Virus record (IMG/VR): IMGVR_UViG_3300036846_000885
Location: 1-37,307 of that record
Direction: 5' to 3' (one strand)
Length of the DNA stretch: 37,307 nucleotides
Origin: a virus
The notes beneath the pieces are model-generated. The model had not been told where the DNA came from. It did not search any database and saw only the letters and a list, made by a program, of their open reading frames with translations. Below are positions 1,664 through 18,053 of the stretch, piece by piece. Position 1 is the first letter of the stretch, and each line of letters opens with the position of its first letter. The translations under genes and the position numbers were made by a program.

Positions 1664-4171
1664 TTACTGCAATGCTGCTGGGTTCGGCGCGTTCTGCTGC
1701 GACGGCCCCATCAGAAGGTTGCCGAGATAGGGACCGCCCAACCGCCGCAGAAGCGCATTCTCGGCGGGATGCAGGCCAAGCCGAGAAACGCGCCCAGCCT
1801 GACCGATAGCAATCGTCGGAGCGACGACGTATTGCAAAAAATGCTGGAGTTGATCCGGGTTCATAAATCCGAGCCCAACAGCACCCGCGCCTTCGCCCAG
1901 GCCAAGCATTCTGGCCATCGCCAATTCACGCCCGGTGCCGCTGCTCTTTAAGTCCTGAAGCGGCCCATGCAGGACACGTGCGAGAGCATCCAACTCGCCG
2001 TTGCCGCCCCGAAACAAAGGATCAAAGTTTGGGTTTTTTGCGGTGCCCTGAATGCGATTCGCCAATGCAGTATAGCTAGCGTCGGCAGCATCTCCGGTTC
2101 TAACGACCAGCGGCTCTACCGTTTTAATCACTTTCCAGAAGTACCGACCGCGATTGAAATCATCGACTGCCTGCTTGGTCGCCGCGGTTGCACCGGGATA
2201 AAGCGCCGGATCTGCGGTACGCGAAGCCGCATCCTGTAAAGCGTTGCGTACCTCCTGCGCGTAAGAACTTTGCGCTCTATCGCCCGTATTAATCAGCCTA
2301 TCGAGGTCGCTGTTGTAAGAAATCAGATTATGCAATTGATCGCCCGGTAATTTACCGCCGTTGTTAGCCATAACGTTCTGAATGTGATCAATTAAGTTAG
2401 TGATCGGTTTAACTTCATTTGCCGTTGCCGATGAATGAAGATTAGCAAGAGTGTCGAAAAATGTCTTATCGACATTGGGATCTACCGTAACTTGCTGGAT
2501 CTTATCCATCAACTGACCCGCGTTAGCACGAGCCATTTTTATCGTGCCGAGGCCAATCGCGTTGGTTTCCGGAATGCCCATATTGCGGGTGAGAATGCGC
2601 GAGATGTTCGCCTTGTCAGCGGCCTCCTTTGTCGCGGCACCGCTAAACGGCAAATACTGGGTATAGCTCTCCAGCTTCTTGGCGAGCCCCCCCATAAGCT
2701 CCCCTGCGCTCAACTTAAACCCGAGGTTTTCGGCTTCTTGCTTAACAGCATTTGTTGCTTGCGACACCAAGGCACCAGTGCCCGAAACCGCGCCGCCGAG
2801 CAACCCGCCACCGAGCGCGCCGCTTGCAAAATCGTGCGCCCATTGGCTCGGATCGAGGCCGCCGCCGGTCAGCATGTTTTGAAAACCGCTGGTCGTCGCC
2901 CAATCGGCAATCGGCTTGGCAGCACCCTTGAACATCGGCAGCGCGACATCGGCCACCGGGCCAACCGCGCGACCGACGAGGCCACCAACCCCGCCAACCG
3001 GCAATGTTCCCAGGATCTCGCCCCCGATCTCTCCGGCCTTAGCGTAAGGGCTGCCCTTGTATTGCTCTTTATACGCCTCGGTCTGAGCCGCCAAATCTGC
3101 ACGTACAGCAGCGGACTTCTCCGGCGTATAGCCACGCAGGCGATTCATCTCCGCATAGAGCGGCACATTCTCGGTCAGATACTTATCGATGTTCTCGAGG
3201 GTCGTCCCGACCGTGCGCACGCCCTGTCCGAGGCCCGAGCCGGCTTCCTGCAGGGTCGGTAGCTCGAAAGCGGGATGCTCGCTCCTGAGCAACGGGTTAT
3301 CCATCGCGGCAAAAGAGGGCGAATAATCCCGCTGCAACCAATTATCGGATGACGGTTTATCGAGCGTGAATTGACGTGCTAGCCAGCCCGGCGGCTGGGC
3401 GGCTGGAGCAGGCACAGCGGTAGCCGCTGGTTCACCGCCCAGGGTCAGCGGCGCATTGTCACTTTCGGTTGGCGCAGGCGAGGAAGCTGGGGTCGTGGTT
3501 GGCGAGGGTGGCGGCCCAAATATATGCGTCTGCAGGTCACCCGTCTCACTCGCTGGGATAGCCTGCGCAGGCGGCGGCTGTGCGGGCGGAGCCGCCGCTG
3601 CTGTCTTGGGAGCCGGGCCAAAGATCGCTTCCTGTAGATTGACCTGCGGTTGGCTCTTCGACGGCATGTCGCCCCCCGCTAGCTGAACCGCTTTGCCGCT
3701 CCGGTAATCGACGCCGCTAATAGGATTGACGCCAGCCCACTCAAAATGCATCGGGTCGCGGTTGGCGGGCGACCAATCGCCACCCCAGGTTAGCCCCCAC
3801 TTTGCAGCCAATTCGCTGACATTGGGCGGCAGGTTGGTCTTGCTAGTCCGCCATGGGTTATCGGCAGGGTTGATGTCGATTGCATTGCCAAAGGCGTGCT
3901 CACTCAGGCCGCCACCACCCGCTTTTCTGCGGTTGCTATAGCCGCCAACGCTGGTGAGCGGATAGCCGAGATCGGCGAGGTTGCCGAGAAAACCCCGGAA
4001 GCTATCGGCTGCCGCCTTGTTGACCGTAACGGTCCTATCGGTCCCCGGTACTGGAACTTGCACCAGATTCGCGCCGGGGCCACCAAACAGGCCCGGCTGT
4101 CTCTCGGCAAGGTTCGCCGAGCCGGGAATACCGCTCCACCAGGGTTGCGAAGGATCAGAGGGATCAGCCAT
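1664..4171 (-). CDS. Ejection protein with N-terminal M15 peptidase
   Basis: An 835-aa multidomain virion protein at the P22 gp16 position, last of three ejection-type genes. Residues about 40-150 form a peptidase M15 (VanY/extensin-like) domain: GGYSNRR, then LSEHAFGNAID with His92 and Asp99 as zinc ligands, then DPMHFEW with His142. Such enzymes cleave peptide cross-links in peptidoglycan. A Pro/Ala-rich linker (about 170-290) follows, with two LQxxIFGP motifs (near 179 and 213), then a long Ala/Gly-rich helical region typical of internal virion proteins. The ATG at 4171 overlaps the upstream stop (TAATG); a GTG seven codons earlier is less likely. The presumed role is wall penetration during DNA entry. 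It may also double as lysin, since no separate endolysin was found. Confidence 0.85.
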   Translation of the reverse strand: MADPSDPSQPWWSGIPGSANLAERQPGLFGGPGANLVQVPVPGTDRTVTVNKAAADSFRGFLGNLADLGYPLTSVGGYSNRRKAGGGGLSEHAFGNAIDINPADNPWRTSKTNLPPNVSELAAKWGLTWGGDWSPANRDPMHFEWAGVNPISGVDYRSGKAVQLAGGDMPSKSQPQVNLQEAIFGPAPKTAAAAPPAQPPPAQAIPASETGDLQTHIFGPPPSPTTTPASSPAPTESDNAPLTLGGEPAATAVPAPAAQPPGWLARQFTLDKPSSDNWLQRDYSPSFAAMDNPLLRSEHPAFELPTLQEAGSGLGQGVRTVGTTLENIDKYLTENVPLYAEMNRLRGYTPEKSAAVRADLAAQTEAYKEQYKGSPYAKAGEIGGEILGTLPVGGVGGLVGRAVGPVADVALPMFKGAAKPIADWATTSGFQNMLTGGGLDPSQWAHDFASGALGGGLLGGAVSGTGALVSQATNAVKQEAENLGFKLSAGELMGGLAKKLESYTQYLPFSGAATKEAADKANISRILTRNMGIPETNAIGLGTIKMARANAGQLMDKIQQVTVDPNVDKTFFDTLANLHSSATANEVKPITNLIDHIQNVMANNGGKLPGDQLHNLISYNSDLDRLINTGDRAQSSYAQEVRNALQDAASRTADPALYPGATAATKQAVDDFNRGRYFWKVIKTVEPLVVRTGDAADASYTALANRIQGTAKNPNFDPLFRGGNGELDALARVLHGPLQDLKSSGTGRELAMARMLGLGEGAGAVGLGFMNPDQLQHFLQYVVAPTIAIGQAGRVSRLGLHPAENALLRRLGGPYLGNLLMGPSQQNAPNPAALQ

Positions 4172-5988
4172 TAGGGAACCGCTACCGACCACGAGCGGTC
4201 AGGGTTCTGGGTGATCCAGCCTTGGTTCTTGGCGTAAGTAAAATTCTTCTGAAACTGCGCCGCTGCGGCTGGGTGATCTTTCTGGATCTTCGCGACCATC
4301 TTCTGCTGCGCCTCAAGCCCCGCACCGTCAGCCATCCAGAAGATGCGCGGATCGAATCGACCGCCGGTCGCTTTGTCTACGCCGTTCCAGTTATTCTTTG
4401 CCCACTGAGCATATTGGCTATCACCCCAGCCTTGTTGTTTGGCTTGCTCCCAGGCGCGGCTCTGCGCTTCGAGCGCATGCTGCCCGCCAAGCAATGCCGA
4501 GATTAACAGTTGGTTGCCTTCACGAGACAATGCCGCCCCAGGTGTCGATAGCTCCGATAATTGCTGGCGAGCATCCGTAGGATTGCCGCCTAACTGATCC
4601 AGCATGCGTCCTGCAAGAAGGCTCGAATCTTTCTTGAAAGCTTCCTGCGCCCCTTGGGCATCGTTGACGTTCAGCGTGTCGGTTGCGCCGGTCGCGACAT
4701 GCAGACGCTGCATCGCCTGACGCCATGTGCTTGCCTGATCGGCCCCCATTCCCGGCGTCCAGCCCGGCACGTTCAATTCCGAGCGCATATCAGTCAAGAG
4801 CGCCTTGGTCTGCGGTGCCTGCGTGACCGCCGTCGTCAAAGCGGCGAGTTGCCCGGACCCCAGAGCCGCTTGTTGCTCTTGGGTTTTTACCTCTCCCGGC
4901 GAGGGCGGCACGCCAAGGCCGCCACTAGGTGGCAGTTGTCCGGTAGGCGCGCGTTGGGTCTGTGGCGGCGGCGGCTGAAGATAAGGCGGCGGCGTCGGAG
5001 TAGCCGGCGCAGGTGCGGCTTGCGGCGGCGCTGGAGGCCCACCCGTGCGTGTTGTCGGTGCCGGGGCTGTTGCCCCACCGCCCGGTGCCGTAGGTGCGGG
5101 AGCGGCTTGCGGCGGCGCTGGAGACACGGCAACCCCACCCGGTGGCGGCGCTGCTGCCTGCGCACGCAGCACAATCGCCCGCTGCTCTGGAGTGAGCGCT
5201 TGCATAAGCAGTGGATTACTTGCCAATAGCGGAGCCATGTCCCCAAGCCGCACCTGCACCGGCTGGTTGCCGATTATCAGGTTGACAGGCTGGTTCTGCT
5301 CGGCAGGCGACATCCCCAGCTGGATTGGCACGCCGGGCGTCGGATAACTGACGCCCCCCGGCGCGCGTGGATTAACCTGTGTTGGTGTAACGAAACCACC
5401 CGTCGAAAATGCGCCGTAGCCGGGCGTCTGCGCCTGCAGCATCTCGCGCGTGTGCTGGTTGGCGTAGTAGCCGCCGATCACGAGATTGCTGGCGTCACCG
5501 TTTGGGCCAATCTCCGCTAGCTGCCTGTCTAGATTGGCCTGCATGTCCGGAGACAGTTTTGGCATGTTCTTGGCGGCCTCCATCACCTGAGCGCCGGTCA
5601 CAGGCGGCCCCTTGCCCTGCACTGCTAGCTGCGCCTGGGCATAGAGCGGCGACAAAGACGCCTGCCGAGCCTCGACGCCCGCCATTATCCCGGCAACGTC
5701 CTGCGCCCTGCCGATCCCTTGCGCGCCAACTGCTTCGCCCGCCTTCTGCATCGTCGGCCCGGCGAACATCCGCGCATCAGGATCGCGCGCTACATCCGCA
5801 TTGAACGCGCCCATGTTCAGAGTGCCGGTCGTCGGGTCGATGTTCCGGTTGTAGATCTCGCCGACCGCCTCCTGCGCGCGGTACTGCCGTGCCGCGGTCA
5901 ACGCGTTGACGGTCTGCCCGAATTGCTCAAACGGGTTCGGCGGGTTCGCCAGCCGGTTAACGAGCGCGCCAGTGCCGGAATCGGACAT
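4171..5988 (-). CDS. Putative internal virion/ejection protein, 605 aa
   Basis: It occupies the P22 gp20 position between two other ejection-type genes. The N-terminal about 200 residues are Ala/Gln-rich and helical (NPFEQFGQTVNALTAARQY near residue 18). Residues about 280-370 are an extreme Pro/Ala/Gly linker (for example PAPPQAAPAPTAPGGG), and the C-terminal about 200 residues are helical and Trp/Gln-rich. No enzymatic motif is seen. The start has a Shine-Dalgarno (GGGAGA), and the stop overlaps the start of the peptidase-bearing gene. The role as a channel-forming ejection protein is inferred from gene order and composition. Confidence 0.75.
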   Translation of the reverse strand: MSDSGTGALVNRLANPPNPFEQFGQTVNALTAARQYRAQEAVGEIYNRNIDPTTGTLNMGAFNADVARDPDARMFAGPTMQKAGEAVGAQGIGRAQDVAGIMAGVEARQASLSPLYAQAQLAVQGKGPPVTGAQVMEAAKNMPKLSPDMQANLDRQLAEIGPNGDASNLVIGGYYANQHTREMLQAQTPGYGAFSTGGFVTPTQVNPRAPGGVSYPTPGVPIQLGMSPAEQNQPVNLIIGNQPVQVRLGDMAPLLASNPLLMQALTPEQRAIVLRAQAAAPPPGGVAVSPAPPQAAPAPTAPGGGATAPAPTTRTGGPPAPPQAAPAPATPTPPPYLQPPPPQTQRAPTGQLPPSGGLGVPPSPGEVKTQEQQAALGSGQLAALTTAVTQAPQTKALLTDMRSELNVPGWTPGMGADQASTWRQAMQRLHVATGATDTLNVNDAQGAQEAFKKDSSLLAGRMLDQLGGNPTDARQQLSELSTPGAALSREGNQLLISALLGGQHALEAQSRAWEQAKQQGWGDSQYAQWAKNNWNGVDKATGGRFDPRIFWMADGAGLEAQQKMVAKIQKDHPAAAAQFQKNFTYAKNQGWITQNPDRSWSVAVP

Positions 5989-9809: not shown

Positions 9810-10437
9810 GCGGCAACCGCTCCTCGATCTCCTTGATGCGCTGCATCAGATGCCCGAAATACGCCATCGGCGCGTAGTCCTTGCGATTGCTCTCCCGGTC
9901 AGACCCTTCAGCAACCTTGCGCACATAGGCCAGTTCCGCGCGCAGACCTATGACCTGCCCCAAGAGCGTCTGCTCGACCGCGGCCAATCGCTTGTGATCC
10001 TTCTCCAGCGCCGCGAAATCCTCCTGCGTCGCGCTGTCGGGCTGCTGCTCGAGGCGGGCAATGCGGCGCGCGAGGTCGTCATGGTCGATACCGAGATCGG
10101 CGTGCATCTGGTCGATGCGCTCAACCGCCGCCTCCAGGGCACGCCGTAATTGGTTGAGCGTCACCAAGACCGCGCCCATGCTGGAGAGCGGCGCATATTC
10201 GCGCTCGTTACGCTGACGTGCGTGCATCGCGGTGAGATGTTCCAGCGCCGTCACGCGCTCTTCCAGCCGCCCCAGGCGCATCTCCAGGCCGACCGCCGCG
10301 GCATCGGGCTGCAAGGCTTGCGCCATCGCGCGCTCGACCCAGTCGGCCAGCGCAGCGAAATTTTGATTTAAATGATCAGAAGTGAGTTGATCACCTTTCT
10401 TCCAAACGACGAGGCTGTGGCCGTTGAGATGGCTCAC
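9802..10437 (-). CDS. Coiled-coil virion protein, 211 aa
   Basis: After a short N-terminal segment with [16 protein letters not shown] (about 16-31), a signature I associate with phage tail proteins, the chain is a long heptad-repeat coiled coil (about 50-205) interrupted by a repeated [12 protein letters not shown] / [12 protein letters not shown] motif (about 98 and 190). I chose the GTG at 10437; an ATG at 10521 lies deeper in the HNH gene. Even from the GTG it overlaps the end of the HNH gene by 47 bp, which suggests the endonuclease gene landed on its 5' end. It could be an elongated connector or needle-like component; this is inference. Confidence 0.7.
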
Positions 10438-11089
10438 GCGGCGCTCGCTTTGAATTGCGCTTGTTGTTGGCTTGCGCTTTTCGCGTAGCCCATACGCAGT
10501 TTTCTGGAGAATAAGGCCCATCGTTGTTTATGCGTTCGATAGTGAGGCCCGCGCGGTATGCCGGCCCCATATCGCGCCAAAATACCGCGAAATCTTCCCA
10601 CGCCTCGCAGACAGCGATGCCACGCCCGCCATAATTCGGATAACTCTTCTGCTTTGGATTCTGGCATCGTTGCCTCATGGCCATCCAAACCATGTGCGGC
10701 TTGGTATCCGCTAGACCGTGCTTGGTTACACGTTGGCGCAACAACTGGTCGCGGACGCATCCGCAAGATGCATATTTTTTCAAGTCGCTGTGAGAAGCGC
10801 TGCCGGTTTTGCCGCAATCGCAGCGGAAATTCCAATACCGCAGCTTGGCCGATTTGCCCAAAACCAGCCGCATACCAAATCGCTTGCCAATAAGTGCTAG
10901 GACACGGACGCATCCACATGATGTTGACCGCCCACTTCTAAGCCGATGCCCATCGACCACACGCTCGACGCCGCAAACACAACGACACAGCCATTGAAAC
11001 TGATTGTGCTTGTTGCGCTCCGCAGATTCCAGAACCAGCCAGCGACCATAAAACTGGCCAGAAAGGTCTATATGGGATTTCTCTTTCAT
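10391..11089 (-). CDS. HNH-type homing endonuclease-like protein
   Basis: A 232-aa protein with two Cys-rich modules, CRCVCG...STSCGC (about 35-59) and CDCGK...ASCGC (about 89-111), then [20 protein letters not shown] and the nuclease-like block [12 protein letters not shown]...[20 protein letters not shown] (about 152-204). This order is that of free-standing phage HNH/homing endonucleases. The tail is basic and Pro/Arg-rich. It sits between the gp4-like adaptor and the coiled-coil gene, breaking an otherwise P22-like order, and its end overlaps the downstream gene. It probably cuts alleles lacking the insertion. Confidence 0.85.
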
Positions 11090-12502: not shown

Positions 12503-13738
12503 CTATACGATATCGGCCACCTTCACCACCCATTCCGGCCTGACCAAGAGGCTCCCGAAGAGAATATCGAGCCGCGTGATGAACTGGTCCGACATGACGG
12601 CGTAGTCGGTGACCATGCGCAGGCTGATGCCATCATACGTCTCGCGCGCCGCCTCGTGAACGCCGCGGGGCAGCTCTAGCTCCGCGGTGGCCAGCGTGAC
12701 CGCCTCCGAGTAATAGGCGAAATTCTGGCGGAAGACTGAACTGGCAGGCGTAGCAAAGACGATGTTGGCACCGGCTGCGGGCGAGGCCGTCACGGTCTGG
12801 AACGGCACCGGCAAGGTCGGCGGCGGCGGCGAGGGGTTGGTCGCGGGCGGTGTGATCGGCGGGTAGATCGGAATCGTCGTCGCGCCCGCCAGCACCGGAG
12901 CGGTAACCACGAACTGCGCCAGGGTGCCGTTATTGGCCTTGGTGACGCGGTTGACGCTGTTGACCCCGGCGATGGTCAGGATCTCGCCGCCGGTCAGCGG
13001 CCCCGCCAAAGCCGTCACGGTCAGCACACCGCCGGTCTGGTTGGCCCCCGCGACTGTCGGCGGCGCACCGTAGGCTCCCGTGGTGCGCGTGATCACGGTC
13101 TGATCCATCCCCCAATCAAAGCCCAGCGTGTCCACGGTGATCGTGCCGCGGATGTACTGGTCCGAGATCTTGGTCTGCGGGTTGAAGAGTCCCATGAGGC
13201 TCGTCACGGTGCGAGCCTGGGTCAGCGGGTCGAGCACAATGAACCTGTCGTTGCGCGGTGCGCCGGCCTTGTCCAATACCGCCCCCGCCGCGAGCCAAGT
13301 CCCGGCGGTGGGGCTGATCATCGCGCCGCCGGTATCGGTATTTTGCACAAAGTTGGCGGCGTTATTGATATTCAGCATGACCGAGTTGGCGACGCCGCCG
13401 GCCAAGGTGTTGACCGCGGGTGCCAGGATGCGCTGCGAATAATCGTCGAGCGAGAGGGCGCGTTCCGCCGAGGAGAACGACACATCGACGCCCATTTGGG
13501 TCGCCAGCACCAACTGAGTGCTTTGCTCGTTGGTGTTCTGCGGCACCGCGGTGGGGCCGGTTCTGAGCGTGTAGTCGTTAGGCAGCCGGATGCGCAATTG
13601 CGAGCCAATCTTCGCCCCGGCGCGGCCAAATTCTTCGTCGAACTGGCGTCCGATGGTGCGCAAAAACCAATTGCTGTTACGAAACAGGCGTAACGCCTCA
13701 CGCGTAACGACATCAATCGTAAGGAGTGTATTGGGCAC
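12503..13738 (-). CDS. P22 gp5-like major coat protein
   Basis: A 411-aa P22 coat-family protein. I chose the GTG at 13738 (VPNTLLTIDVVTREALRLF) because GGGGGA lies 8-9 bases upstream and the family typically begins MANTLLT..TREAL; a GTG eight codons earlier is an alternative. Conserved blocks include GAKIGSQLRIRLPNDYTLRTG, GVDVSFSSAERALSLDDYSQ and LAPAVNTLAGGVANSVM. A Pro-rich, immunoglobulin-like or I-domain-type insertion (about 230-340, PPITPPATNPSPPPP) precedes the C-terminal VMSDQFITRLDILFG. It forms the HK97-fold shell. The scaffold gene is about 3.5 kb upstream rather than adjacent, because the accessory island lies between them. Confidence 0.88.
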   Translation of the reverse strand: MPNTLLTIDVVTREALRLFRNSNWFLRTIGRQFDEEFGRAGAKIGSQLRIRLPNDYTLRTGPTAVPQNTNEQSTQLVLATQMGVDVSFSSAERALSLDDYSQRILAPAVNTLAGGVANSVMLNINNAANFVQNTDTGGAMISPTAGTWLAAGAVLDKAGAPRNDRFIVLDPLTQARTVTSLMGLFNPQTKISDQYIRGTITVDTLGFDWGMDQTVITRTTGAYGAPPTVAGANQTGGVLTVTALAGPLTGGEILTIAGVNSVNRVTKANNGTLAQFVVTAPVLAGATTIPIYPPITPPATNPSPPPPTLPVPFQTVTASPAAGANIVFATPASSVFRQNFAYYSEAVTLATAELELPRGVHEAARETYDGISLRMVTDYAVMSDQFITRLDILFGSLLVRPEWVVKVADIV

Positions 13739-13795
13739 GAGCGGAATCCCCCGAAGAGACACGGTTGAGATATCCGCGCATTAGCCAGCGCAGGT

Positions 13796-14440: not shown

Positions 14441-15028
14441 TCAGTCCCCGGACGGCGTCGGGACGGGCACCTCTGGCACCCCAATCACAACCCAGCCGGT
14501 TTTTTCGGTCCAGCCATAGGTCCACTCGATCATCTTCTCGCGCTCCGGACTGTCGGGCGGCAGAAAGATCGGTGGGGTTGGAAACGGCTCGTTTGCGCCG
14601 CCCCAGATCCCCAAGGGGGGAGGAGGGATGACAATAGGGTGACTTGGCACCCCAGGCTCGACCGCATCCGGTGGAATAACGATGGGATGCGTCGGAAACG
14701 GATCGGTCGGCCCCCAGATCCCGGGAGGCAAGTAAATCGGGTGCTCTGGCTTGCCACCACCAAGGCTACCCGGCGGAATCACGATGGGATGACTTGGGTA
14801 AATCGGGATGTAAATGGGGTGCGTCGGCACACCATCAGCAATACTGTCGGGCGGAATGATAACGATGGGATGCGCCGGAACCGGCGGGATGGGATGCGCC
14901 GGATAGGCTGGCGGCCCACCAGGGCTGATGGGGTGACTCGGATGCGGCCCGCCCGGCATCGGCCCGCCGCCGATCCCAAGCCCGCTGTAGTACATCTCGC
15001 CAACAAAGGTTACAGGTATGCCCGCCAT
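14441..15028 (-). CDS. His-Pro-Ile repeat protein
   Basis: A 195-aa protein built almost wholly of Pro/His/Ile/Gly repeats. Eight xHPI units (PSHPI, PAHPI, PTHPI, PEHPI) recur every 8-26 residues between about 30 and 145, usually followed by xxPP, with interspersed GIWGxxxPFP segments. A C-terminal Trp-rich module (EWTYGWTEKTGWVVIGVPEV, about 168-187) follows. There is no signal peptide, membrane segment or enzymatic motif. Regular Pro-rich extended repeats suggest a fibrous or metal-binding (His) protein. I have an impression of related sequences in rhizobial phages but cannot verify it. It lies in the accessory island between scaffold and coat genes. Confidence 0.75.
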   Translation of the reverse strand: MAGIPVTFVGEMYYSGLGIGGGPMPGGPHPSHPISPGGPPAYPAHPIPPVPAHPIVIIPPDSIADGVPTHPIYIPIYPSHPIVIPPGSLGGGKPEHPIYLPPGIWGPTDPFPTHPIVIPPDAVEPGVPSHPIVIPPPPLGIWGGANEPFPTPPIFLPPDSPEREKMIEWTYGWTEKTGWVVIGVPEVPVPTPSGD

Positions 15029-15071
15029 TTTCTCGTCTCCTCAAAGTTGAACGCGTCGGAAACTACTCAGC

Positions 15072-15872
15072 TTAGCCTGAACGGCGACGCCGCCACAGGG
15101 CAGTAAAGCCAAACGTCATCACGGCGGACCCCAGCACCAGCAGCGAGGCCGGCTCCGGAATCGGCGGCGGAGGCGGCGGTGGTGGGGGCGGCGGTGGCGT
15201 CGTTGTGGTCACGTTGACGAGGCCGGTGTTCGTCCAGCTTGTGTCGAAAAACGTCACATGGTCGGTCCCGGTGCCGTTCTCGGCAAACGGGAAGATGATA
15301 TCGCCTTTCGCGAAGCTGCCGATGAAGTTGATCTCGTCCTTGCCCTGGAAGGCTTGGTTAACCGAGAACGTAAACACGGTCAGCGAGTTGGGCGTTGTAA
15401 TGCTGTTCGCATTGTAGGCTGTGGTGATATTACCCGCGTTCAGAGAGTTGTCGCAGGCGACGCATCCGACAAACGTGTAGAGGTCAGATGACCCCGCCGT
15501 TGAGAACGTCCCGCTAACAGTACCCGTGGGGGTGACCGTCACCGGGGTCGCGGGCTGGCTATCGAACAGATAGGAGCCACTGGTGATCGTCGGTGCGGGT
15601 GCCCCGGTTGGCACCGCGATATAGACGGTCAGCGGCTGGCTGATGTTCTGCCCGCCAACGTCCTGAATGCTGAACGCCGTGCTGTTGTTCAGCAAAACAG
15701 GGTCCGACCCCGTGGCGACGCTGCTCGTCACATGGAACGAGGTGGGATCGATATAACTGATCCCGTTTATGATCACGTCGGCATGTGCGGCGGGGATGCC
15801 AAAGGCGAGGGCGGCTGCCGTCGCTGGCGAAGCCAGCATGCGAACTACGTTCGCGAGCAAAGTGCGTTTCAT
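15072..15872 (-). CDS. PEP-CTERM sorted surface protein 1
   Basis: A 266-aa secreted protein. The N-terminal signal peptide (basic MKRT, hydrophobic core, cleavage after PAAHA about residue 31) is followed by a beta-rich Ser/Thr/Gly domain. It ends with a 12-proline run (226-237) and a canonical PEP-CTERM signal: IPEPASLL (238-245), a TM helix and the basic tail WRRRRSG. Such proteins are processed by a bacterial exosortase, which would have to come from the host. The start ATGA overlaps the stop of the 91-aa gene, giving translational coupling. Finding it inside a virion operon is highly unusual. Confidence 0.9.
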   Translation of the reverse strand: MKRTLLANVVRMLASPATAAALAFGIPAAHADVIINGISYIDPTSFHVTSSVATGSDPVLLNNSTAFSIQDVGGQNISQPLTVYIAVPTGAPAPTITSGSYLFDSQPATPVTVTPTGTVSGTFSTAGSSDLYTFVGCVACDNSLNAGNITTAYNANSITTPNSLTVFTFSVNQAFQGKDEINFIGSFAKGDIIFPFAENGTGTDHVTFFDTSWTNTGLVNVTTTTPPPPPPPPPPPPIPEPASLLVLGSAVMTFGFTALWRRRRSG

Positions 15873-16144
15873 GACCGTGATCCCTCTTTGTGCTGCTCAA
15901 GCCATGCGGCGGCGCACCAGAACCAAAGCGCCACATCGGCTTTTGTGCTTTCCCGGCGCGCCTCATAGCCGAGCGCCTGACTCGCGGCCATCCACCCCAC
16001 CTCCCGCGGGTCATCGGCCTCGAGCGATGCGAGCAGCGCTCGCAACCGCGCAAGCAGCGGGGCAGGCGTGCCATCATCGGCGGCGAGCCAAGCGATAGCT
16101 CCCCGCAACGCGTGCAGATGCTCGTCCGGCACGGGCGCGCTCAC
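15869..16144 (-). CDS. Unknown helical protein between PEP-CTERM genes
   Basis: About 91 aa, Ala/Leu/Trp-rich and helical (LHALRGAIAWLAADDG, ARLRALLASLEADD, VALWFWCAAAWLEQHK). The start is uncertain: GTG at 16144 is chosen, with GTG at 16153 an alternative, and neither has a strong Shine-Dalgarno. The short gap to the upstream PEP-CTERM gene allows coupling. The stop overlaps the start of PEP-CTERM protein 1. No family is recognised. Being locked between two exosortase substrates suggests a shared function, but this is inference. Confidence 0.55.
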   Translation of the reverse strand: MSAPVPDEHLHALRGAIAWLAADDGTPAPLLARLRALLASLEADDPREVGWMAASQALGYEARRESTKADVALWFWCAAAWLEQHKEGSRS

Positions 16145-16158
16145 AAGAGCCACTTGGC

Positions 16159-16848
16159 TTAGCCCGACCGGCGACGCCGCCACGCGACAAATCCCAGCGA
16201 GGCCAGCATTGTTCCGAGCATTCCCAAAGTACCCGGCTCCGGAACCGCCGTCTGAAAGATCGTGTCGGTTATCCCAGTCAGGTTGGTGCCCGCCGTCGTA
16301 TTCGTGACCGTTTGGGTGATGCTCAGATTTGAAAGGTTGGGGACGACGGCTTGCAGGACCGGACAAGTAGAAGCTGGGTCTGTGGCACCGCTGGCGAGGG
16401 TTGCCCTAAAACAGTTGAGGCTGATATCGCCACCTCCCACAAGATTCGTGTGGGCGCTGAGGCCATTCAAAGTGATGTCCTCTTGGAAGGCTGAGATGAG
16501 GTCGGTGCTTCCCGGCGCGACCGCGACCGAATAGTTGATGTTGCCGGTGGCAAGCCCGCTGACTTCGCCTTGGAACTCTACAGTGACCGAATTGGCAGTG
16601 ACGTTTATGGTGAACTGGGCGTTGCCCGCTTGGCCGGTGATCGCGCCGCCGACGCTTGCGCTGCCGAAGATCTTGTCACCTACCTGCACGCAATTGCCGC
16701 TTGACAGGCCTGCCAGATTGGTAGTGCCACCTGACGCAAGCGGAGTGGTTGTAGTGCATGATGGTGCTGCGGCCTGAGCTGAAGCTGCCGAAAGCAAACC
16801 GATGCCAGCCAGCAAAGCGACATGTGTTGCCTTCATCTTCCGGGCCAT
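16159..16848 (-). CDS. PEP-CTERM sorted surface protein 2
   Basis: A 229-aa secreted protein. The ATG at 16848 follows AGGGGAGG; a TTG seven codons upstream is less likely. The signal peptide (MARKMKATHVALLAGIGLLS, cleavage near SAQAAA) precedes a beta-rich domain with a C...GNCVQVGDKIFG pattern typical of PEP-CTERM proteins. The C-terminus is VPEPGTLGML (202-211), a TM helix and WRRRRSG, the same last seven residues as PEP-CTERM protein 1. Host exosortase would anchor or process it. It heads the island operon, just after an AT-rich promoter-like region. Confidence 0.9.
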   Translation of the reverse strand: MARKMKATHVALLAGIGLLSAASAQAAAPSCTTTTPLASGGTTNLAGLSSGNCVQVGDKIFGSASVGGAITGQAGNAQFTINVTANSVTVEFQGEVSGLATGNINYSVAVAPGSTDLISAFQEDITLNGLSAHTNLVGGGDISLNCFRATLASGATDPASTCPVLQAVVPNLSNLSITQTVTNTTAGTNLTGITDTIFQTAVPEPGTLGMLGTMLASLGFVAWRRRRSG

Positions 16849-16923
16849 GACGAATCCTCCCCTAACCAACTTACATCAATTCGCCATGCAAAAAACGCGC
16901 CCCTAATAAAATCAAAGAGTTAT

Positions 16924-16984: not shown

Positions 16985-17224
16985 CTAGCCCGGTCTGGCC
17001 TCGCAGTCGCGAACCATCTGCATGACTCGCGCCGGAGGTTCAGAGACAGCAAACCCCCGCGGTCCCCCGAGATACAGAATGCTGCCGGTGCCGGGCGCGA
17101 CATGCTCCCGATACCCGGCAACCGGCCTGACGACCCGTATGATGTCTGCGCGCAGTACAAAAAATTCGCTGCCATCAGGCGAATGGAGCGCCAGAACGCA
17201 GGCCGCCACGAGGCTCGCGAACAC
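16985..17224 (-). CDS. Small FlbD-like protein
   Basis: 79 aa from a GTG that follows the scaffold stop by one base (TGAGGTG); a longer start inside the scaffold gene is possible. The arrangement LHSPDGSEFFVLRADIIRVV, then GSILYLGG, then SEPPARVMQMVRDCE resembles the small FlbD family (a beta-rich core, an 'F-L-N-x-D-x-I' strand and a C-terminal helix), related copies of which I recall from phage structural operons. Function in phages is unknown. It is the last gene of the conventional head module before the accessory island. Confidence 0.6.
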   Translation of the reverse strand: MFASLVAACVLALHSPDGSEFFVLRADIIRVVRPVAGYREHVAPGTGSILYLGGPRGFAVSEPPARVMQMVRDCEARPG

Positions 17225-17225
17225 C

Positions 17226-18053
17226 TCACCGCGAGATCCGCGAACGGCGCTCGTCACGGTCGCGCCTGCGGATAAACTCAGCCATCGAGACGCGGTTGTC
17301 GTCGAGCGGGCGCTCGGCGGCGCGGCTGGTGCCGCCCACCGGGCGATACGGTTCGGGAGCGCGGCTCACCGGGACGGTTGCCCCATTCCCGGCCCCGTTG
17401 CCAGCACTCGGCGCGAGCCGCGCCAACTCGTAGGCCATCGCGCCATAGGGCAAATTCAGAATGCGCGCGGCGTTGTCGAGGTTCTTCGCCAATTCGCGAT
17501 AGACCCGGTGCGCGTCGGGGATCTGCGTCACGATCGCCAGGGCGTCGGGCCGGTCGCCCCAGCCCACTGCCTTCAGCGCTGAGACGGCGTCGTCCATCGC
17601 GGTGCCGTATTCCTGCTGGCCATTCTGAAAGAGTGAATTGCACTGGCGGTTGAACTCCTCGGCGACCTGCTTCTCGCCCAGTTCGCGCCGGGCGCGTTCG
17701 TAGGGATCTTCCTGGCCGGGCGGCCCCGGGCGCTGTCCTTGGCTCGCCTCTCGGCGGATCCGCTCGAACTCACCTAAGACTTGGTCGCGCTGGCGCTGCG
17801 CCTCGAACTTCTCTCGGGTCAGCCGGTCGATGCGCATCTGCTGCGCGAGGCGCTGTTCTTCGACCGTTTGCTCCCCGGCAGGCGGGGGCGGCTCTCCGGG
17901 CTCGTCCGGACCCGCTGGAGGGGCGGAAGGCTCTTCGGGCCTCTGAGGGGCGGGTTCCTCTCTAGGCCGCTCTACGGGCTCCGGAGGGGGTTCTACGGGT
18001 GCCCGTCTCGGCTCCTCGGGCGGCTCGGCGTCGGCCCGGATGCGGTCAGACAT
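17226..18053 (-). CDS. Putative scaffolding protein
   Basis: A 275-aa, highly charged protein without hydrophobic core. Residues 10-60 are an Pro/Glu-rich disordered arm. Residues about 62-140 are a long charged helix with coiled-coil character (QQMRIDRLTREKFEAQRQRD). A helical region follows, and the tail is basic (RRRDRDERRSRISR, last about 14). A basic C-terminal helix is the coat-binding element of P22 gp8 (about 303 aa), and the gene lies between portal and coat as in P22. Sequence similarity to gp8 is not evident, so the call rests on position, size and composition. Shine-Dalgarno AGGTGA precedes the ATG. Confidence 0.78.
   Translation of the reverse strand: MSDRIRADAEPPEEPRRAPVEPPPEPVERPREEPAPQRPEEPSAPPAGPDEPGEPPPPAGEQTVEEQRLAQQMRIDRLTREKFEAQRQRDQVLGEFERIRREASQGQRPGPPGQEDPYERARRELGEKQVAEEFNRQCNSLFQNGQQEYGTAMDDAVSALKAVGWGDRPDALAIVTQIPDAHRVYRELAKNLDNAARILNLPYGAMAYELARLAPSAGNGAGNGATVPVSRAPEPYRPVGGTSRAAERPLDDNRVSMAEFIRRRDRDERRSRISR

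Follow-up and report, generated by a model that had tools for sequence, protein, structure and literature searches.

A phage whose capsid genes enclose two proteins with the C-terminal sorting signal of a bacterial surface pathway raises the question of whether these signals are genuine, how the genes came to reside there and what the virus would gain from them. It is posed by a soil phage whose entire 37.3-kb IMG/VR record (IMGVR_UViG_3300036846_000885, 37,307 nucleotides, hereafter the window) was analysed, in which the minus-strand genes PEP1 (15072..15872) and PEP2 (16159..16848) encode proteins with a PEP-CTERM tail. The PEP-CTERM tag is a C-terminal label that certain bacteria use for sorting proteins to their surface slime. 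The description of proteins carrying it dates from 2006 and was based on bacterial genomes; few of them have an established function. In the model put forward with the definition of the PEP-CTERM signal, the signal peptide would lead such proteins into the inner membrane, where the tail would retain them and EpsH/exosortase would process them (PMC1569441). In the open literature, with subscription papers and database annotations outside the search, we found no paper reporting phage-encoded PEP-CTERM proteins.

Results

PEP1 (266 residues, ATG start) comprises a signal peptide at about residues 1-31, a conserved body (32-222), a polyproline spacer and the PEP-CTERM tail, and PEP2 (229 residues, ATG start, with an in-frame TTG upstream at 16869) has four cysteines in its mature body, followed by its own tail. 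Both reading frames are open, and hydropathy, on which this statement is based, places a hydrophobic peak at either terminus of each protein and none between, in agreement with the signal peptide, body and tail that a sequence-only reading of the locus had described. The C-terminal ends combine a Pro-Glu-Pro motif, a transmembrane stretch and a basic cluster (IPEPASLLVLGSAVMTFGFTALWRRRRSG and VPEPGTLGMLGTMLASLGFVAWRRRRSG), and the corresponding domains are located at 15081..15161 in PEP1 (IPEPASLL...TM...WRRRRSG, a TIGR02595 match) and at 16165..16245 in PEP2 (VPEPGTLG...TM...WRRRRSG, TIGR02595 30.2 bits), both on the minus strand. In both proteins Thr, Ser, Gly and Ala are abundant, and Lys and Glu are scarce. 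By reading, neither signal region contains a lipobox cysteine (AAHA-DV; AQA-AAPSC), and scans against domain libraries found no catalytic domain in either protein.

When compared to the curated cut-offs of 16 bits for TIGR02595 and 20.7 bits for PF07589, PEP2 exceeds both, with 26 and 24.1 bits. PEP1 alone is borderline in TIGR02595, where it scores 15.9 bits by hmmscan, just under the cut-off, and 19.7 bits, thus over it, in a genome scan. The earlier reading of both ends as PEP-CTERM tails thus stands, by the model scores firmly for PEP2 and at the borderline for PEP1, which stays under the cut-off of PF07589. PEP2 also aligns over the C-terminal half of the flocculation-associated protein PepA (NF033554; 33.1 bits, E 5e-8), although this score is far under the curated cut-off of 80 bits and the tail alone already gives 26 bits in TIGR02595.

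Three further viral contigs in IMG/VR encode PEP1, with identities of 86, 84 and 67%, and a contig of 66.6 kb has a partial match, so that homologues are known from L003, L004, L005 and L142; those of three other phages exceed the TIGR02595 cut-off, and all retain the Pro-Glu-Pro motif. Identity of the body amounts to 93% in L003, 90% in L004 and 72% in L005, and the nonsynonymous substitution rate (dN) of 0.06-0.2 compared to a synonymous rate (dS) of 0.6-2 corresponds to a dN/dS of about 0.1, indicative of purifying selection. The body is better conserved than the tail, and the signal peptide has diverged, with similarity at the DNA level starting near the mature N-terminus. In L004 the genes are arranged in the order large terminase subunit (TerL), proline-rich reading frame, PEP1, the companion gene mid described below, a homologue of the window gene at 16985, and portal (phrog_2662); in L003, PEP1, mid and a second PEP-CTERM protein precede, with genes in between, TerL and a portal of phrog_146. 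L005, a contig of 111 kb, contains two PEP-CTERM genes end to end. Since the body is conserved although the terminase and portal genes of L003 and L004 fall into PHROG families other than those of the window, PEP1 moves between phages and is kept. Its GC content at third codon positions exceeds that of most neighbours in L004 and L005, which is in line with recent transfer.

The two proteins of the window end in the same seven residues, WRRRRSG, as noticed earlier, and the similarity extends to the DNA, where blastn detects a 27-nucleotide repeat between the 3' ends of PEP1 (15070..15096) and PEP2 (16157..16183), both on the minus strand, at 93% identity, the latter copy being homologous to the junction of PEP1 and mid in L004. 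The gene mid (15869..16144, minus strand, GTG start), whose 91-residue product and location between PEP1 and PEP2 agree with the earlier description, overlaps the start of PEP1 by four nucleotides. It directly follows PEP1 in L003 and L004 and PEP2 in the window, and tblastn matched it at 59% over 71 residues in L003, at 84% over 25 residues in L004 and in no other compared phage, leaving three phages with mid, each of which also carries PEP1. The window DNA spanning the end of PEP2 and mid matches by blastn the L004 DNA spanning the end of PEP1 and mid, continuing over the stop codon into the companion gene. Because of this match and of the repeat, the seven common residues are best read as a product of recombination, in which the end of the tail and the following gene would have travelled together. 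For the same reason, WRRRRSG was dropped as a mark of independently matched substrates.

A survey of related phages, as had been proposed, placed PEP1 in phages with other packaging modules and extended the phenomenon beyond it. A degenerate DNA pattern for the peptide VPEP[AG]xLALLG, a single consensus that neither PEP1 nor PEP2 matches and that gives no base rate, identified 65 contigs in IMG/VR, compared to none for a control pattern of the reversed peptide. These contigs include several near-duplicates, are of mixed completeness and are not all proven to be phages, with a few (such as L133) resembling bacterial DNA. In all cases among the matches listed, the motif starts 22-33 residues from the C-terminus. 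The bodies cluster into a family of 39 contigs (C0), one of nine that includes the second protein of L003, one of five that includes a protein of L021, and small ones, and the tails are common to at least six unrelated body families. Many of the contigs have hallmark genes in the vicinity, and the PEP-CTERM gene shares the strand of a nearby portal gene in 27 of 27 instances, of TerL in 24 of 25 and of the coat or major capsid protein in 16 of 16. The contexts comprise phages with an SU10-type coat protein (L178), phages with a P22-type portal and a coat protein of phrog_334 (L120, L161) and a myovirus (L172). Within the group of about 42 kb typified by L161, a TIGR02595 match is present in 14 of 35 records and in 8 of the 11 near-full-length ones, which reach at least 38 kb. 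Closer pairs of C0 show a dN/dS of 0.09-0.34, and a predicted model of this protein (mean predicted local distance difference test, pLDDT, of 76) has a beta-rich body preceded by a signal helix and followed by a C-terminal helix that coincides with the PEP-CTERM stretch. As judged from these sequences, PEP-CTERM genes are recurrent, exchangeable cargo that unrelated soil tailed phages have loaded into their packaging and head modules. The tails of the window do lie within a P22-like head module, as described earlier, but they are not unique to it.

Searches of IMG/VR with the single sequence of PEP2 revealed no relatives; one, 37% identical and with its own PEP-CTERM, was later found by the pattern scan in the myovirus contig L172, beside head and tail-sheath genes (tail sheath phrog_205) and adjoining a second PEP-CTERM protein that is beta-helix-like. 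Right-handed beta-helix proteins adjoin PEP-CTERM genes in L161 (700-1803) and L120 (4055-5137), both by Pfam Beta_helix, and, by reading, in L172 (7789-8922), where the protein carries its own PEP-CTERM tail. In L178, a 75-residue protein with one hydrophobic stretch and no family match (1538-1765), encoded immediately before the terminase gene, overlaps the PEP-CTERM gene at its stop and could be a holin-like partner.

INPHARED contained no match to the queried families (PEP1, PEP2, C0 and the second protein of L003), and phage PEP-CTERM proteins are therefore seen here only in uncultured phages. GTDB contigs showed no match to PEP1 or to the coat-protein alignment, in a search with two short peptide patterns for each that offers no proof of absence, and plasmids contained no PEP1 and only a distant match to the coat protein.

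In the window, library scans of the reading frames identified terminase, portal, P22-type coat, head-closure, ejection, endolysin and tail-fibre genes, besides a DnaB-type helicase and recombination genes of the Erf, RecE and NinB types. No integrase turned up among the reading frames scanned, which did not comprise all of them, and the window contains no tRNA. PEP1 and PEP2 sit on the structural strand between a scaffold-like gene (17226..18053, minus strand), assigned by position and by conservation of a homologue that lies ahead of the coat gene in almost every P22-like relative, and the gene of the P22-type coat protein (12503..13762, minus strand; PF11651 101 bits, phrog_283 200 bits), which form the upstream and downstream borders of the interval. 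The order of portal, scaffold-like and coat genes (PF11651 coat, phrog_156 portal) is the same as in the isolates PAE2 and phiAX1, whose gene before the coat gene directly adjoins it, in contrast to the 3.4 kb that separate the two in the window; in P22-like relatives this gap ranges from almost nothing to 2.3 kb. The PEP genes therefore occupy a cargo slot. A scan of the slot for promoters revealed nothing above chance for them.

Other occupants of the slot include a 90-residue gene upstream of PEP2 (16985..17257, minus strand), whose homologue in L004 (52% by tblastn) is placed between mid and portal. The gene of a proline-rich repeat protein (14441..15028, minus strand) is without significant tblastn match; by reading alone, it resembles in its HPSHPI-type repeats reading frames of the unrelated phages L004 (7268-7816, beside PEP1, without Pfam match) and L025 (7159-7776, in the same slot). 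The close P22-like relative L018 encodes on the structural strand, between its scaffold-like and coat genes, a GH26-type glycosidase with signal peptide (3555-4697; PF02156 29 bits, cut-off 20.2), and short reading frames in the slot of L010 and L025 look, by reading, exported or lipoprotein-like. Judging by the few genomes concerned, exported cargo may thus be a theme of the slot.

Elsewhere in the structural module, an HNH-endonuclease gene (window 10391-11089) has homologues in L007, L008, L010, L014, L015, L019, L020 and L021, where its position in the structural module varies from one relative to the next, compatible with homing-type mobility. The coat-protein relatives L063-L066 (58-60%) carry IMG/VR contig numbers that suggest isolate genomes.

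Discussion

The described features leave little doubt that PEP1 and PEP2 are real phage-encoded PEP-CTERM proteins. With their bacterial counterparts (TIGR02595/PF07589, EpsH/XrtA) they share the signal peptide, a body without further membrane segments, the PEP motif, the transmembrane stretch and the basic end, and they differ from them by their residence in packaging and head modules of phages, by bodies that belong to phage-recurrent families and by the absence of an exosortase in the phages tested. As their genes lie among the late genes on their strand, late expression is likely. In the overall best explanation, which we consider to have about an even chance of being correct, PEP1 and PEP2 would be expressed late in infection, as suggested by their operon position, exported via Sec and processed at their tail by the host exosortase, which would release them from the inner membrane for delivery to the outer surface or the exopolysaccharide. 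Their beta-rich bodies would there occupy or modify the envelope or exopolysaccharide of the host, such that phage would no longer be captured by the cell that makes the proteins or by debris of this cell. This last step, exclusion or anti-readsorption as the function of the body, is the least certain part and is proposed tentatively; the earlier reading had put forward receptor masking, superinfection exclusion or matrix change. It has a parallel in the superinfection-exclusion proteins Llp of phage T5 and Ltp of TP-J34, which are likewise phage-encoded, exported and destined for the host envelope, and of which Llp prevents phage from adsorbing again to infected cells or to debris (PMC9586334). 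Both are lipoproteins, though, unlike PEP1 and PEP2 with their exosortase tail and no lipobox.

Several observations weigh against this explanation. None of 21 phage records tested encodes an exosortase, and the tail, if working, therefore works through that of the host. PEP1 reaches 18.3 bits in PF07589, below the cut-off. Among relatives of the window's coat protein, a PEP-CTERM protein is found in only 1 of 23 closer ones (L021) and in 0 of 50 more distant ones, and this cargo is therefore dispensable in the clade; moreover, the protein in the slot of L021 differs from those of the window and is encoded on the strand opposite to the head genes. Neither PEP1 nor C0 has a statistically supported fold match, and for PEP1 Foldseek gave no match with an E-value below 0.03. 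Finally, Llp is made early rather than late (PMC9586334), at variance with the location of the PEP genes among late genes.

The strongest alternative, which is less probable, assigns the exported proteins a role in the matrix, where they would bind, loosen or reorganise the exopolysaccharide of the host and thus aid the exit and spread of progeny in a biofilm instead of blocking adsorption. A PEP-CTERM protein acts, with exopolysaccharide, in floc formation (PMC9850573), and the glycosidase in the slot of L018 and the beta-helix proteins that accompany PEP-CTERM genes in L161, L120 and L172 would fit such a role, but of these neighbours none except that of L172 carries a PEP-CTERM tail, and PEP1 and PEP2 lack a catalytic domain. 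The low-confidence model of PEP1 (mean pLDDT 57.8) aligns best with carbohydrate-binding modules (CBM3/27/35; Z 6.5, root mean square deviation 2.8, 106 residues), although a Z of about 6 lies within the background for unmatched models, the level of all CBM-like and barrel-like matches from the fold searches of PEP1 and C0. The data do not separate the two roles, and we place exclusion slightly ahead.

That the tail unites six or more unrelated families of bodies, and that the window, L003 and L005 each contain two substrates per cassette, could also point to a decoy, by which phage substrates, made in abundance, would saturate the exosortase of the host and stop host PEP-CTERM proteins and exopolysaccharide assembly, with the bodies mattering little. 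However, the body of PEP1 evolves with a dN/dS of about 0.1 and is more conserved than the tail, the opposite of what a decoy predicts, and we thus regard this as improbable as the main function. Similarly doubtful is the proposal that the proteins stay unprocessed, with the tail as a C-terminal inner-membrane anchor that acts independently of an exosortase. It is favoured by the weak score of the PEP1 tail in PF07589, but not by the Pro-Glu-Pro motif, which is needless for an anchor and yet retained in all PEP1 homologues and in other families, the latter having been found by that motif. Finally, despite the sporadic occurrence of PEP-CTERM proteins in the window's own clade, a chance inclusion of host DNA or the assembly chimera that had been named as a potential refutation, either without function for the phage, is very improbable and the chimera was rejected, since independent contigs from several metagenomes carry the same families on the same strand in structural modules, including those of other phages, their bodies are under purifying selection and PEP1 is absent from GTDB matches in the search with two patterns.

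Returning to late, exported proteins that employ the host exosortase, the recurrence of the tails raises the prospect that tailed phages of soil have, in several unrelated lineages, taken up exosortase substrates as late cargo and that the host exosortase is commonly exploited to give the envelope and exopolysaccharide of the host a new coat or to remodel them at about the time of lysis, a generalization to which we give slightly less than an even chance. If phages recurrently keep PEP-CTERM genes in their late modules, exosortase sorting would be part of the interplay between phage and host, and these small phage proteins under selection would offer a way to study the role of PEP-CTERM proteins at the cell surface and within the matrix. 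A further prediction is that the hosts of these phages are bacteria with an exosortase, and this would be usable for host assignment. Phages may thus rework the outer layer of their host late in infection.
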